Source: Pontixanthobacter gangjinensis
GTDB lineage: Bacteria; Pseudomonadota; Alphaproteobacteria; Sphingomonadales; Sphingomonadaceae
Assembly: GCF_009827545.1 (NCBI RefSeq)
Contig: NZ_WTYS01000001.1
Coordinates: 1,885,772 to 1,949,771, forward strand
Length of the DNA: 64,000 nucleotides
Direction: 5' to 3'
The translations under genes and the position numbers were made by a program. Below, one piece after another: positions 41,845 to 45,845 of this stretch. Below the pieces are notes generated by a model. The model worked only from the letters and a program-made list of their open reading frames with translations. It was not told the DNA's origin and ran no database searches. Each line of letters begins with the position of its first letter. The stretch's first letter is position 1.

Positions 41845-42948
41845 ATGAAACTGTTTATCTCCTGTTTCGCAATTTCTGCCCTGTTCATGCTGCCGGCCAG
41901 CACCGGATTTGCCGATGAGCGGTGCAATGGCAAAATCTGCGGGCCCGACACAAACATCGAGCTAAAGGCTAAACGCAAAGGTGGCTACCGCGACGGACAG
42001 TCGCCAGAAGAACTTGCAGAGGCAGAACAAATTGCGTTCGACGCCGCCGTTGAAGCGAATGTTTTCAAACCGGTAATCCAGGATTACGAGCCAAGTCCGG
42101 CAATCTGGAAATTGGCCGACGAAGACACGACCATTTACATGTTCGGCACGTTCCACATCCTGCCCCAGGGATTTCAATGGCGCAGTGATGCGTTCAACGC
42201 CATTGTTCAGCAAGTGGATGAGTTGGTAGTCGAAACCAGCGATGCCGATAGCGAGGAATCGCTGGGCGAAGTTATGGAAGAGATGTTCAGCGACATTTTC
42301 AGCGATGAACGAACACCAGTTTCTGAACGCATATCCGCTGAAAATAAGGAGAAATGGCTGAGGCTCGGCGAACTCGCAGACATGCCCGGTCCTATCTTCG
42401 ACCGGATGCCGTTATTCCTCTCGCTGATGGGAGCTGGACTGTCGATTTCCGAGCAAGCAGGATCGTCAGGCGAATATGGTGTCGAAACCGTGCTTGAGGC
42501 CGAATTCAAAGAAGCGAGCAAGCCCATCGGTTCGATCGAAGATAGCGGCGCTGTGATGTCAGCCCTGATTGGTGTCGACGAGGACAAGCTAATCATAGAT
42601 CTGGATAAAGACCTGCGCGAATGGGATGGCGTGAGCCTTGCTTCGATGTTCGAGATCGTAGACGACAATGGTGACGAAGAAGCTGGCCCCTTCCGGTCAG
42701 AGCATCTTTGGGCTCAGGGGAAATTGGACGAACTGGCCGAAGATGAATTCGGCGATTCAGAGGTTGGCCGGGAAATTTACCGCATCCTTATAACCGACCG
42801 CAATCGCGCGTGGGCAATGTGGCTGGACGACCGGCTAAATCAGCCGGGAACAATCTTGCTAGCCGTAGGCGCTGCCCATTTTGAAGGGCCGGATTCGGTT
42901 TTGAACATGCTCAAAGAGCGCGATCTTTCTGCTAATCGGTTGAATTAG
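41845..42948 (+). CDS. TraB/GumN family protein, copy 1 (secreted)
   Basis: 367 residues with a signal peptide (MKLFISCFAISALFMLPASTGFA). TraB/GumN proteins share a Tiki/EreA-like metal-hydrolase fold. Hallmarks: IYMFGTFHILPQGFQW (GTFH near residue 106) and the C-terminal GTILLAVGAAHFEG. Compared with its neighbours it carries an extra ~65-residue N-terminal stretch (from DERCNGKICGPDT) after the signal. The ATG at 41845 has GGAG 7 bases upstream. First of three paralogues in 4 kb. Function in bacteria is not established; peptidase or esterase activity is inferred from the fold. Confidence 0.88.
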   Translation: MKLFISCFAISALFMLPASTGFADERCNGKICGPDTNIELKAKRKGGYRDGQSPEELAEAEQIAFDAAVEANVFKPVIQDYEPSPAIWKLADEDTTIYMFGTFHILPQGFQWRSDAFNAIVQQVDELVVETSDADSEESLGEVMEEMFSDIFSDERTPVSERISAENKEKWLRLGELADMPGPIFDRMPLFLSLMGAGLSISEQAGSSGEYGVETVLEAEFKEASKPIGSIEDSGAVMSALIGVDEDKLIIDLDKDLREWDGVSLASMFEIVDDNGDEEAGPFRSEHLWAQGKLDELAEDEFGDSEVGREIYRILITDRNRAWAMWLDDRLNQPGTILLAVGAAHFEGPDSVLNMLKERDLSANRLN

Positions 42949-43041
42949 AACCGGGCTACCCTGCATTTTTAGTTCAACCGTCGAGGCTTCATTTGCGCTT
43001 CGGACTGGCGGCCGCTGGCAACAGTATAAGTCGGGCAATCA

Positions 43042-43128
43042 TGACAATGTGTCAGGTAGTGTTGACATGGTCAGCGAATCACGACATATAGTCATGTATA
43101 CCTGACATCTAGTCAGGAAATACTGACA
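43042..43128. promoter_or_regulatory. Promoter with an array of TGACA/TGTCA half-sites
   Basis: Within 87 bp: TGACA-ATG-TGTCA (43042-43054, perfect dyad), TGACA inside the -35 hexamer TTGACA (43062-43067), CCTGAC-ATCTA-GTCAGG (43101-43117, perfect dyad) and CTGACA (43123-43128). A -10 TATAGT lies at 43087-43092 (19-bp spacer; CATATA at 43085 gives 17). The sites surround the promoter of the small-protein/Xre/membrane-protein module, so the likely ligand is the Xre protein encoded just downstream, or another dyad-binding regulator. Confidence 0.6.
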
Positions 43129-43158
43129 CAACACAGCCTCTCAGAAAGGACGCACACC

Positions 43159-43281
43159 ATGCCTACTAAAGCCCAAATCATCGAACGTGCCCCACAAGTT
43201 CTCGCCAGCACAACCTTCATGCTGGCGGGATACGCTATCGGCAATATTACGGTAACAATCACCAAACTGCTGTTCGGATAA
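43159..43281 (+). CDS. 40-residue small hydrophobic protein, unknown
   Basis: ATG at 43159 with AGAAAGGA 9 bases upstream, TAA at 43279. Sequence begins MPTKAQIIERAPQV and continues as a mostly hydrophobic segment (LASTTFMLAGYAIGNITVTI) ending TKLLFG, so a probable single-span membrane peptide with a charged N-terminus. First gene behind the TGACA-rich promoter and 47 bp upstream of the Xre regulator; probably co-transcribed. Not recognised as any family. Confidence rests on the ribosome site, position and protein-like composition. Confidence 0.55.
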   Translation: MPTKAQIIERAPQVLASTTFMLAGYAIGNITVTITKLLFG

Positions 43282-43328
43282 GCGATGCAAAGCCGTAATC
43301 CCATAACCACAGGACGAAGGAGGTCAGA

Positions 43329-43523
43329 ATGAACAACCGCCTTAAAGTTCTCCGTGCGGAGCGCGATTGGAGCCAAGCCGAGCTTGCAGGCCATCTCGAT
43401 GTTTCCCGCCAGGCAGTCAACGCCATTGAAACGGGTAAGCATGACCCCTCCCTACCCCTAGCCTTTCGCATTTCACGGCTGTTCAAAATGCCGATTGAGG
43501 AGATTTTCCATGACTCAGAATGA
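43329..43523 (+). CDS. Xre-family helix-turn-helix regulator, short
   Basis: 64 residues, essentially a bare HTH: RLKVLRAERDWSQAELAGHLDVSRQAVNAIETGKHDPSLPLAFRISRLFKMPIEEIFHDSE. This is the short Xre type that often sits next to and controls a membrane protein gene. Preceded by a near-perfect AAGGAGGT ribosome site, so strongly translated. Overlaps the next gene by 14 bp. Likely binds the dyads upstream at 43042-43128 (inference). Confidence 0.92.
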   Translation: MNNRLKVLRAERDWSQAELAGHLDVSRQAVNAIETGKHDPSLPLAFRISRLFKMPIEEIFHDSE

Positions 43524-43944
43524 TCAGCAAACATCTGCCGAAAGCGGCGAGCAAAAGCTTGCGCGGCGCAAACGTTCATTCTGGTCCTTCGTGTTGCTCG
43601 GCACGGTGATTGCTGGCGTCGCGGGGTTTGCAAGCGGGTTCGTCACATCGCGGGTTGAACAAGGGCTGATTTCGGAGTGGGCAATCTACCCGATACTTGC
43701 CGTCACTATCATCGGCTTCATCTGGTTTAGCTACCTCTATTATATGAGGATCGACGAGCTCGATTTGATGGATAATCTATGGGGCAACACCATCGGAATG
43801 TACGCCTATGTTATCATCACTACCTCGTGGATGCTATTCGAACAGGCTGGGATTACTGGCGCGCCGCAGCATTGGCCGATCCTGACTGCAACAGTCGCAA
43901 TATCACTCATCGCTTACACCGCGCGCCGATTGGGCCTGCGTTAA
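43510..43944 (+). CDS. Four-span membrane protein partnered with the Xre regulator
   Basis: 144 residues. Charged N-terminus (MTQNDQQTSAESGEQKLARRKRS) then four hydrophobic segments at about 25-45, 62-82, 95-115 and 122-138. ATG at 43510 lies inside the Xre gene, giving a 14-bp overlap and coupling. Short Xre plus small membrane protein pairs are common, but the function is unknown. Not recognised beyond that pairing. Confidence 0.8.
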   Translation: MTQNDQQTSAESGEQKLARRKRSFWSFVLLGTVIAGVAGFASGFVTSRVEQGLISEWAIYPILAVTIIGFIWFSYLYYMRIDELDLMDNLWGNTIGMYAYVIITTSWMLFEQAGITGAPQHWPILTATVAISLIAYTARRLGLR

Positions 43945-43983
43945 TAATCTTCTCAAAAATCCTAATCCAATGAGGAAATCTCT

Positions 43984-44916
43984 ATGACTAAAATTATGAA
44001 GAAACTCAGCTTGTCGGCGGCTGTGGTCGCGATGTCATTCTCTGGTACGGCTTGCGCGCAACAGCAAGAGCCAACCCCAGTGTCCACCACCCGGGTTGCT
44101 GCAGCCGAAGTTGAAATGGGCGGCCCGGCACTGTGGAAAGTCGCGGACGAAGACACGACTATCTACCTGTTTGGCACTGTTCACGTCCTGCCTGAAGGTA
44201 TGGAATGGTACGAAGGCAGAATTGCGCAGGCGCTCCAATCGTCAGACAAGCTGATTACCGAAATCTATCTGCCTAAAGGAAACGAGGCTGCCGCAGGCGC
44301 GGCGTTTATGGAGAAGGGCTCACTGCCAGCAGGTGATAACTTGCGCGATTTGCTGAGCGAAGAACAAAAGGCAGTCTATGAATCGGCTATGACCAAGATG
44401 AAACTGCCGGTCGGCGCATTCGATACTATGGAGCCTTGGCTTGCGGCAGTGAACATCTCGATGATCCCATTATTGCAGGCAGGTTACACACCTGAATCGG
44501 GCGTCGAAAAGGTACTTGAGCAAAAGGCTGGCGACATGATGCGAGGCGAATTGGAAAGCGTCAACTTTCAAGTCGACTTGTTCGATACGCTTCCTCTTGA
44601 ATCCCAGATAGTCTTCATGATGGAAGCCGCTGCCGGCGTTGATGAAATCGTTCCTTCGCTCGACAGCATGGTGGGCGAATGGGCCAGCGGTGATCCAGAA
44701 GAACTGGGCAAGATGATGAACGAGGGTTTCAGCGATCCGGTTCTCGCAAATGCCCTGCTCTATTCACGCAACGCAACCTGGGCAGAATGGATAGATACCC
44801 GCCTTGATACACCGGGAACCATCTTTATCGCGGTCGGCGCCGGACATTTGGCCGGCGAAAAAAGTGTGCAAGATGCATTGGAACTGCGCGGAATTAAGTC
44901 TATTCGCATCCAGTGA
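43984..44916 (+). CDS. TraB/GumN family protein, copy 2 (secreted)
   Basis: 310 residues, signal peptide ending around TACAQQ. Hallmark IYLFGTVHVLPEGMEWYEG near residue 57 and C-terminal GTIFIAVGAGHLAGEKSV. The segment WKVADEDTTIYLFGT is nearly identical to WKLADEDTTIYMFGT of copy 1, also at DNA level, pointing to duplication. Begins 39 bp after the Xre-linked membrane gene and may be in that transcript. Ends with GTGA at the start region of copy 3. Confidence 0.88.
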   Translation: MTKIMKKLSLSAAVVAMSFSGTACAQQQEPTPVSTTRVAAAEVEMGGPALWKVADEDTTIYLFGTVHVLPEGMEWYEGRIAQALQSSDKLITEIYLPKGNEAAAGAAFMEKGSLPAGDNLRDLLSEEQKAVYESAMTKMKLPVGAFDTMEPWLAAVNISMIPLLQAGYTPESGVEKVLEQKAGDMMRGELESVNFQVDLFDTLPLESQIVFMMEAAAGVDEIVPSLDSMVGEWASGDPEELGKMMNEGFSDPVLANALLYSRNATWAEWIDTRLDTPGTIFIAVGAGHLAGEKSVQDALELRGIKSIRIQ

Positions 44917-44942
44917 TATATAAGGTACTCCAAACCCGCCTG

Positions 44943-45845
44943 ATGGTCAGGCATTTCTTAAAGGGGCTGGCAGCACTTTTGTTGCCAGCCCCTTTGCTAC
45001 TTGCGTCCTGCACTGATCCCGAAGTCACTGAAATCAATCAGACCACGCCCTCACCTGCGCTGTGGCAGGTTGAAACGAGTGACGGCGAGATCGAGGGCTG
45101 GTTGTTTGGCACTATTCATGCGCTTCCAGATGGCTTTGAATGGCGGACCGCGAAACTGACCTCGATAATTGATCGGGCCGGCGTGCTGGTGGTCGAAATA
45201 TCCGGCTTGAATGATGATAAGGCAGTCTCCGACGTGTTTAGCGAATTGGCGACGACCCCGGATTTGCCGCCGCTGCAAGAGCGGGTTGAGTATCGTTACC
45301 GCAAAGACCTAAGCGCATTGATGGCCACAGGAAATTACCGAGGGGGAAGCTTTACCGCGACCGAAAGCTGGGCTGCTGCGCTTACTCTTGCTCAGATTAG
45401 TGCTTCGGGCGACCCGAAGAACGGTGTTGATCGTGCTTTGTTAAACGAGTTCGCGAGCAAGCCGGTAATCGAGTTAGAAGGCGCTCGCATACAGCTTGGG
45501 ATATTTGACAGCCTAGCAGAGGCCGATCAACGCGATTTGCTTGAAGCAATCATCTTAGAAGCTGCGACATCCGACCCGGACGAAGCGGACAAATTGTCCG
45601 TAGTTTGGCGGAGCGGCGATATGGATCGGCTAGCACAGGAAAACTCGGAAGGTCTGCTGGCGGACCCCGAATTGCGTGACGCGTTATTGACCGGCCGGAA
45701 TTTGGCGTGGGAACGCAAGTTAGCAGGCCTATGGCCTCAGCATGGACCGATGCTGGTGGCAGTTGGCGCAGCGCATTTGGCAGGCGAAGATGGTTTGCCA
45801 GTGCTACTCGCGAAAAAAGGGTTCAAAGTCACTCGCATCCAATAG
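44943..45845 (+). CDS. TraB/GumN family lipoprotein, copy 3
   Basis: 300 residues from the ATG at 44943 (MVRHFLKGLAALLLPAPLLLASC), which gives a clean lipoprotein signal with lipobox LLASC. A GTG at 44913 overlapping the previous stop is the alternative start. Hallmark GWLFGTIHALPDGFEW and C-terminal GPMLVAVGAAHLAGEDGL. Shorter and more diverged than copies 1 and 2. The codons of its signal peptide contain a perfect 13-bp hairpin (44960-44995) that looks like a terminator for the upstream gene. Confidence 0.82.
   Translation: MVRHFLKGLAALLLPAPLLLASCTDPEVTEINQTTPSPALWQVETSDGEIEGWLFGTIHALPDGFEWRTAKLTSIIDRAGVLVVEISGLNDDKAVSDVFSELATTPDLPPLQERVEYRYRKDLSALMATGNYRGGSFTATESWAAALTLAQISASGDPKNGVDRALLNEFASKPVIELEGARIQLGIFDSLAEADQRDLLEAIILEAATSDPDEADKLSVVWRSGDMDRLAQENSEGLLADPELRDALLTGRNLAWERKLAGLWPQHGPMLVAVGAAHLAGEDGLPVLLAKKGFKVTRIQ
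44960..44995 (+). terminator. Terminator-like hairpin inside the copy 3 signal-peptide codons
   Basis: Perfect 13-bp inverted repeat AAAGGGGCTGGCA / TGCCAGCCCCTTT with a 10-base loop containing TTTT. GC-rich core with A/T ends is terminator-shaped, 44 bp after the stop of TraB/GumN copy 2, yet it lies within the first 18 codons of copy 3. It could attenuate transcription or translation of copy 3. The T-run after the stem is only TTT. Confidence 0.55.

Follow-up and report, generated by a model that had tools for sequence, protein, structure and literature searches.

Two described enterococcal systems come closest to the locus considered here. In Enterococcus faecalis, the repressor CylR2 is paired with a small suspected membrane protein, which, according to excerpts of PMC3709268, is thought to relay an outside signal. 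The TraB/PrgY pheromone shutdown proteins of enterococcal plasmids include PrgY, which the available part of PMC7117660 describes as thought to break down the extracellular peptide signal made by the cell itself; TRABD/Tiki proteins have a literature of their own (PMC12329661, in part). Genes reminiscent of both systems adjoin in Pontixanthobacter gangjinensis (Sphingomonadaceae), within the window, that is, the whole 64,000-nucleotide stretch analysed (contig NZ_WTYS01000001.1, positions 1,885,772 to 1,949,771, forward strand), to which all coordinates below refer. As in the cyl system, the regulator is an Xre protein of about the same size (~65 amino acids (aa)) and of the same family (E 1e-12). 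The regulators here are co-directional with their presumed targets, on the same strand and overlapping, whereas the cyl regulators are divergent in the excerpted account of PMC3709268. The membrane protein has four spans (it is longer in relatives) against three in CylR1, to which it is likened by description only, and the neighbours are TraB/GumN genes instead of a lanthipeptide cluster. With PrgY the locus shares PF01963, a family whose name joins TraB, PrgY and GumN; this likeness too is one of description only. Unlike PrgY, the proteins considered here are chromosomally encoded, carry an export signal or a lipobox and have no known peptide pheromone, and the one small protein linked, of 40 aa, looks membrane-spanning, not secreted. 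Among the matches listed from the open-licence PubMed Central (PMC) literature, none describes this operon or a TraB/Xre link, and none gives a role for a TraB/GumN protein in Sphingomonadales.

The Xre gene, the membrane-protein gene and the gene for the second of three TraB/GumN proteins (TraB2) form a real and conserved unit, which had earlier been misread as a split duplication. The family survey covered 149 genomes of the host family (labels G denote genomes and L loci). Close Xre orthologues, defined as matches with E <= 4e-28, occur in 45 of them, one per genome and the window included, and the other 44 loci were fetched. TraB2 lies downstream of the orthologue in 44 of the 45, the exception being L099 in G110, so the exported TraB/GumN set does have the linked regulator that the initial annotation proposed, and the linkage is conserved. 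Two lower-ranking Xre loci chosen for an adjoining PF01963 match (L108 and L109) stand outside the 45; an alternative count with both added gives 45 of 46 loci with TraB2. Most family loci sit between glyQ and rplY, in the usual order glyQ, Xre, membrane protein, TraB2, TraB3, rplY and pth, although TraB3 is absent from some (for example L064, L072 and L077); the names of glyQ, rplY and pth are our presumed assignments from the sequences. A membrane-protein search of the same genomes found a match in 22. In 21 of these (window included) the matches listed include a PF01963 match 150-326 bp downstream on the same strand, and for the remaining genome, G082, tblastn gives the same downstream TraB arrangement; a second, weak membrane-protein match in G103 (L115) has no TraB. 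Across the 44 fetched loci, identity is 76-95% for Xre and 23-50% for the membrane protein where tblastn detects it. The initial annotation had held that related modules elsewhere without TraB/GumN would count against an association. Such modules exist among paralogues, as 13 lower-ranking Xre loci fetched irrespective of TraB show no TraB match in the 9-12 kb retrieved for each, but the close orthologues keep TraB2.

A profile search with the Xre alignment of the contigs of named genomes yielded 585 relatives, and the best 80 were taken as a named-genome set. TraB lies at most 2.6 kb downstream of Xre in 69 of these best 80 loci; of the 11 without it, L204 is described below, L192 and L199 stop close to the edge of a contig, and TraB is upstream instead in L192 and L242. 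Neither glyQ nor rplY is present in the stretch examined at nine of the 69 loci: L186, L189, L196, L202 and L207 in Sphingomonas, L236 and L245 in Brevundimonas, L238 on a short contig of Hyphomonadaceae, and L246 in Ca. Phycosocius. In two genomes of another family (G210 and G423) the Xre/membrane/TraB unit stands beside what we take to be an rmuC-like gene, and G500 of that family also has the unit. When the class was searched, 12 of 385 genomes proved to have close Xre relatives (E <= 1e-22); of the seven outside the host family, three have TraB and four have none in the 2-3.2 kb examined. Loci outside the glyQ-rplY slot are the best evidence that the coupling exceeds one inherited locus.

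Table 1. Features of the locus in window coordinates.
Feature	Position	Strand	Description
TraB1	41845..42948	+	367 aa; PF01963, signal peptide; sporadic clade; upstream of control region
Control region	43042..43117	+	76 bp, conserved, tandem operator-like sites
GAATC (= GANTC)	43076..43080	.	lies between the second and third operator-like sites; candidate for CcrM methylation
Small open reading frame (ORF)	43159..43281	+	40 aa, probably single-span, GYxxG motif
Xre	43329..43523	+	64 aa, CylR2-like, probable repressor
Membrane protein	43510..43944	+	144 aa, four-span, (I/V)DE motif in predicted cytoplasmic loop
TraB2	43984..44916	+	310 aa; PF01963; conserved partner of Xre/membrane pair
TraB3	44943..45845	+	300 aa; PF01963, lipobox; often next gene after TraB2

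All six ORFs between 41845 and 45845 were verified as initially annotated, including the 40-aa ORF, Xre and four-span protein between the first two TraB/GumN copies. The control region begins 93 bases beyond the end of TraB1 and is followed by the 40-aa ORF, Xre, the membrane protein, TraB2, TraB3, rplY and pth, with glyQ divergent on the left. The 76-bp block, on which the initial annotation did not remark, aligns ungapped in 40 of 47 family loci (score at least 44 of 76; the highest shuffle reached 39), and 53 of the 69 named TraB loci also score at least 44. Near-palindromes of the form TGACA-N3-TGTCA (at least 8 of 10 positions) number 76 upstream of the 47 Xre genes, against 8.9 in single-base shuffles. 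The element GACA starts at 43043, 43064, 43083 and 43104, with a fifth start at 43125 just past the block, so that the operator-like sites are about two helical turns (~20 bp) apart; in the 40 aligned loci, GACA occurs at block offsets 22 (40 loci), 41 (34), 62 (33), 83 (12) and 1 (6). The block presumably contains a promoter, and TTGACA (43062-43067) and TATAGT (43087-43092) lie in it 19 bases apart. A 30-base pattern with at most 3 mismatches was found in 34 of the 149 family genomes, at one site each, and reversed controls gave 0; by coordinate comparison, all 34 sites lie at most 2.5 kb upstream of this locus's Xre. The window's own genome has one site for the pattern with up to 3 mismatches, and a wider regulon in that genome was rejected because this is the only site given. 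The 76-bp region is absent from the 13 paralogous Xre loci scanned, and outside the family TGACA-type repeats of a different layout precede the units.

With moderate confidence, we read 43042 to 45845 as one autoregulated operon in which an Xre repressor and a membrane sensor would control exported TraB proteins. A single transcript would span the interval, and Xre would repress it by binding the tandem TGACA-N3-TGTCA sites covering the promoter. The membrane protein would sense envelope state or a ligand and signal Xre through its cytoplasmic DE-motif loop, thereby lifting repression. The output would be two exported TraB/GumN proteins, probably metal-dependent proteases, together with the small single-span protein, and their presumed proteolysis could feed back negatively on the ligand being sensed, in the way proposed for PrgY. 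TraB1 probably falls outside the operon, given its place upstream of the control region. Such a probable operon, conserved together with a control region of unusual conservation, offers a handle on the poorly understood bacterial TraB/GumN proteins: where a repressor has an apparently single target and a defined operator, what lifts it would tell what the proteases do. A more elaborate version, in which a fast-diverging and in places amplified family of membrane sensors acts on a nearly invariant CylR2-like repressor, whose tandem operator also bears a CcrM methylation site, and the TraB proteases destroy the sensed peptide in a PrgY-like shutoff gated by the cell cycle, is a long shot.

The Xre protein is a probable CylR2-like repressor. 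It matches HTH_3, and its matches in the PDB include 9k3w (E 9e-23), on which no papers were found in the open-licence PMC literature, and CylR2 itself (1utx, E 1.2e-12, residues 3-61). Its presumed partner is far more variable. By hydropathy windows, which provide all span counts here, the window's membrane protein has four hydrophobic segments at a lenient threshold and two at a strict one; D82 and W107 are invariant in an alignment of 30 relatives, and the loop carrying the (I/V)DE motif is predicted to be cytoplasmic from the positive residues at both ends and the segments. All 43 loci with TraB2 in the series L057-L100 have, on one side of Xre or the other, a hydrophobic ORF that looks multi-span. 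In 36 it encodes 116-265 aa and separates Xre from TraB2, in most cases overlapping the Xre stop, and in seven (L078, L079, L080, L084, L089, L098 and L100) it precedes Xre; strict span counts across the series range from 1 to 6. Several loci have up to four or more such proteins, with a DE-, DD- or ED-type motif in those inspected. In several loci of the series, one or more fast-diverging multi-span proteins lie between the control region and an Xre that is nearly unchanged, an apparent local amplification. A Pfam scan of the 30 relatives gave no family matching more than 5 of them (best E 2e-4), and among nine further membrane proteins there were two Pfam matches (three if counted per family), below cut-off. 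This family, poorly covered by Pfam, may serve CylR2-like repressors generally as a receiver of signals. At L109, a 656-aa exported serine-hydrolase-like ORF, with what we take to be beta-lactamase-type motifs, lies between Xre and TraB2, where others have the membrane gene.

The small ORF follows the control region directly in most loci and is absent from some. An alignment of ten of these ORFs (35-44 aa) has G24 in every row and Y25 and G28 in at least 9 of 10; the 40-aa product is probably single-span. Against a same-genus relative, pS is 0.73 and pN 0.26, compared with 0.42 and 0.39 in a frame-shifted control. Across the seven pairs tested pS is always above pN, but so it is in four of seven frame-shifted controls, and the apparent coding contrast is clearly convincing only within the genus. 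At L075, L089 and L093, a small protein of the UrcA family (TIGR04433) takes the same place directly after the control region.

Similar pairs occur with another kind of neighbour. Leaving out L154, L192, L199, L204 and L242 (contig edge, odd case or TraB upstream), 24 Xre loci are without TraB, and at 21 of them Xre has a multi-span ORF close by. Within 1.5 kb on the same strand, 12 of these 24 loci carry an ORF showing the alpha/beta hydrolase elbow, against 5 of 114 TraB loci, the assignment resting on what we take to be the nucleophile-elbow pattern. These pairs resemble the present locus in their Xre and DE-motif multi-span proteins and differ in having a hydrolase-like gene for TraB, with no 76-bp region at the 13 paralogous loci. 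The presence of alpha/beta hydrolase-like genes near TraB-less loci therefore speaks for a general cassette of sensor and repressor whose hydrolase output can be exchanged. In the part of PMC8939145 that deals with graspetide loci, a Tiki/TraB peptidase is named together with a possible alpha/beta hydrolase. The window's own genome has a paralogous CylR2-like Xre (75%) at L110 (G000:C1:629857-630039), adjoined by an alpha/beta hydrolase-like gene and by one whose product is a membrane protein of six spans; this is the same cassette with a different output. At L111 (G000:C1:1249174-1249353), a third paralogue (57%) precedes a gene whose six-span membrane product carries a YDE motif, and what is presumably a glutamine synthetase gene lies alongside.

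Several observations weigh against a single Xre-controlled operon. Roughly two thirds of the genomes of the family have TraB/GumN but no close Xre (147 of 149 genomes have TraB/GumN and 45 of 149 a close Xre), and in G128 TraB2 and TraB3 lie between glyQ and rplY without Xre; the proteins can therefore do without this regulator. Vertical inheritance of one locus could account for much of the linkage. The control-region score is below 44 in 7 of the 47 family loci and in 16 of the 69 named TraB loci, and L204, possibly a rewired or decayed locus, has a control region scoring 56 and membrane and Xre genes with no TraB match in 5 kb downstream. The promoter scan, with spacer limits of 16-18, reported no + strand sigma-70-like site in the control region, and a terminator-like site lies at 44938-44952 between TraB2 and TraB3, such sites being no commoner than in shuffles. 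The window's membrane protein matches no Pfam family over cut-off and has no known solved relative. The G128 arrangement, like the occurrence of the Xre/membrane pair elsewhere without TraB, would fit an accidental, vertically inherited coupling in which Xre controls only its membrane partner and TraB2 and TraB3 have their own promoters. We consider this unlikely, as the gaps are short, the terminator scan found no + strand terminator-like site between Xre and TraB2, the coupling recurs in other contexts, and a hydrolase-like enzyme is the alternative neighbour at the TraB-less loci far more often than at TraB loci.

Two further explanations give the linkage a different meaning. The 40-aa, Xre and membrane-protein genes could be a toxin-antitoxin or immunity module merely adjoining TraB, with Xre as the autoregulating antitoxin and the membrane or small protein as the toxin. 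Such a module would account for the small overlapping genes (the membrane-protein start overlaps the Xre stop by 14 bases), the tandem operator-like sites that accompany Xre and the small, probably single-span peptide; Xre also resembles RstR-, HipB- and HigA-type Xre proteins in NCBIfam, all below cut-off, and was the only protein matched in a scan of an anti-phage library (PADLOC; HTH_VI, E 3e-12). The fixed glyQ-rplY place in most family loci, the retention of TraB2 by the close orthologues and the coupling in other contexts make this improbable. The control region might instead be mainly a GcrA/CcrM cell-cycle promoter, with Xre a minor modulator. After 3 of 95 blocks identical to others were dropped, the 92 distinct blocks (window included) have GANTC at the exact place in 68 cases and, with nearby positions counted as well, in 76, against a mean of 41.8 and a maximum of 50 in 1000 column shuffles that ignore relatedness. 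The window's own genome encodes GcrA and a RAMA-domain protein, RAMA being, we assume, the C-terminal domain of CcrM. Yet the block mostly reads CGAATC, whose middle base A does not fit YGAKTCK, given as the Caulobacter crescentus activation consensus in the available part of PMC7987155; for Brevundimonas subvibrioides, the same excerpts report no extended GANTC motif. No GANTC was seen by eye in two control-like stretches of L153 and L155. A mainly cell-cycle promoter is quite unlikely, and for the Xre-controlled operon that we prefer, the site suggests a possible second, cell-cycle (CcrM/GcrA) input.

The three TraB/GumN proteins are the only PF01963 proteins of their genome. They match the family along the whole domain with 145.7 (TraB1), 225.7 (TraB2) and 161.9 bits (TraB3) against a cut-off of 26.8, and all three keep the GT(F/V/I)H and GA(A/G)H motifs, in agreement with the hallmarks first noted. 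In TraB2 numbering, E93, R262, N263 and W266 are kept in all copies. Residues H67, E93, R262 and H288 of TraB2, which make up the two GxxH motifs and a conserved Glu and Arg, have counterparts in TraB1 and TraB3; each of the three copies retains its candidate metal-ligand residues intact, and their loss from every copy, which the initial annotation would have taken as contrary evidence, was not seen. TraB2 and TraB3 are probably metal-dependent proteases. A lipobox, LASC, is plain in the sequence of TraB3. A search for PDB relatives of TraB by sequence found none; two weak profile matches (E 0.1 and 0.19) were taken as chance.

The paralogues have a longer history than was first supposed. The WK..ADEDTTIY..FGT block that copies 1 and 2 share is real, but because it matches the consensus of 50 aligned proteins of the family, it is no sign of recent duplication. 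Such a duplication was rejected by a tree of 89 rows (one long row is loose) with three separate supported clades, for TraB1 (7 rows, 100/100), TraB2 (46 rows, 100/99) and TraB3 (34 rows, 100/99; 35 rows, 98/82), which places the copies in ancient, separate clades. Insertion of the Xre module between paralogues is likewise unsupported, as TraB2 accompanies Xre where copy 1 is absent; rather than splitting a tandem array, the Xre/membrane pair probably stands first in an operon that continues with copies 2 and 3. Of the five-gene block expected to be conserved, Xre, membrane protein and TraB2, often with TraB3, hold together as the unit, but TraB1 is upstream in only 6 of the 44 fetched family loci with a close Xre orthologue. 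Parerythrobacter lutipelagi (L169) has a TraB1-like gene downstream of Xre instead, and the place of TraB1 is therefore not fixed.

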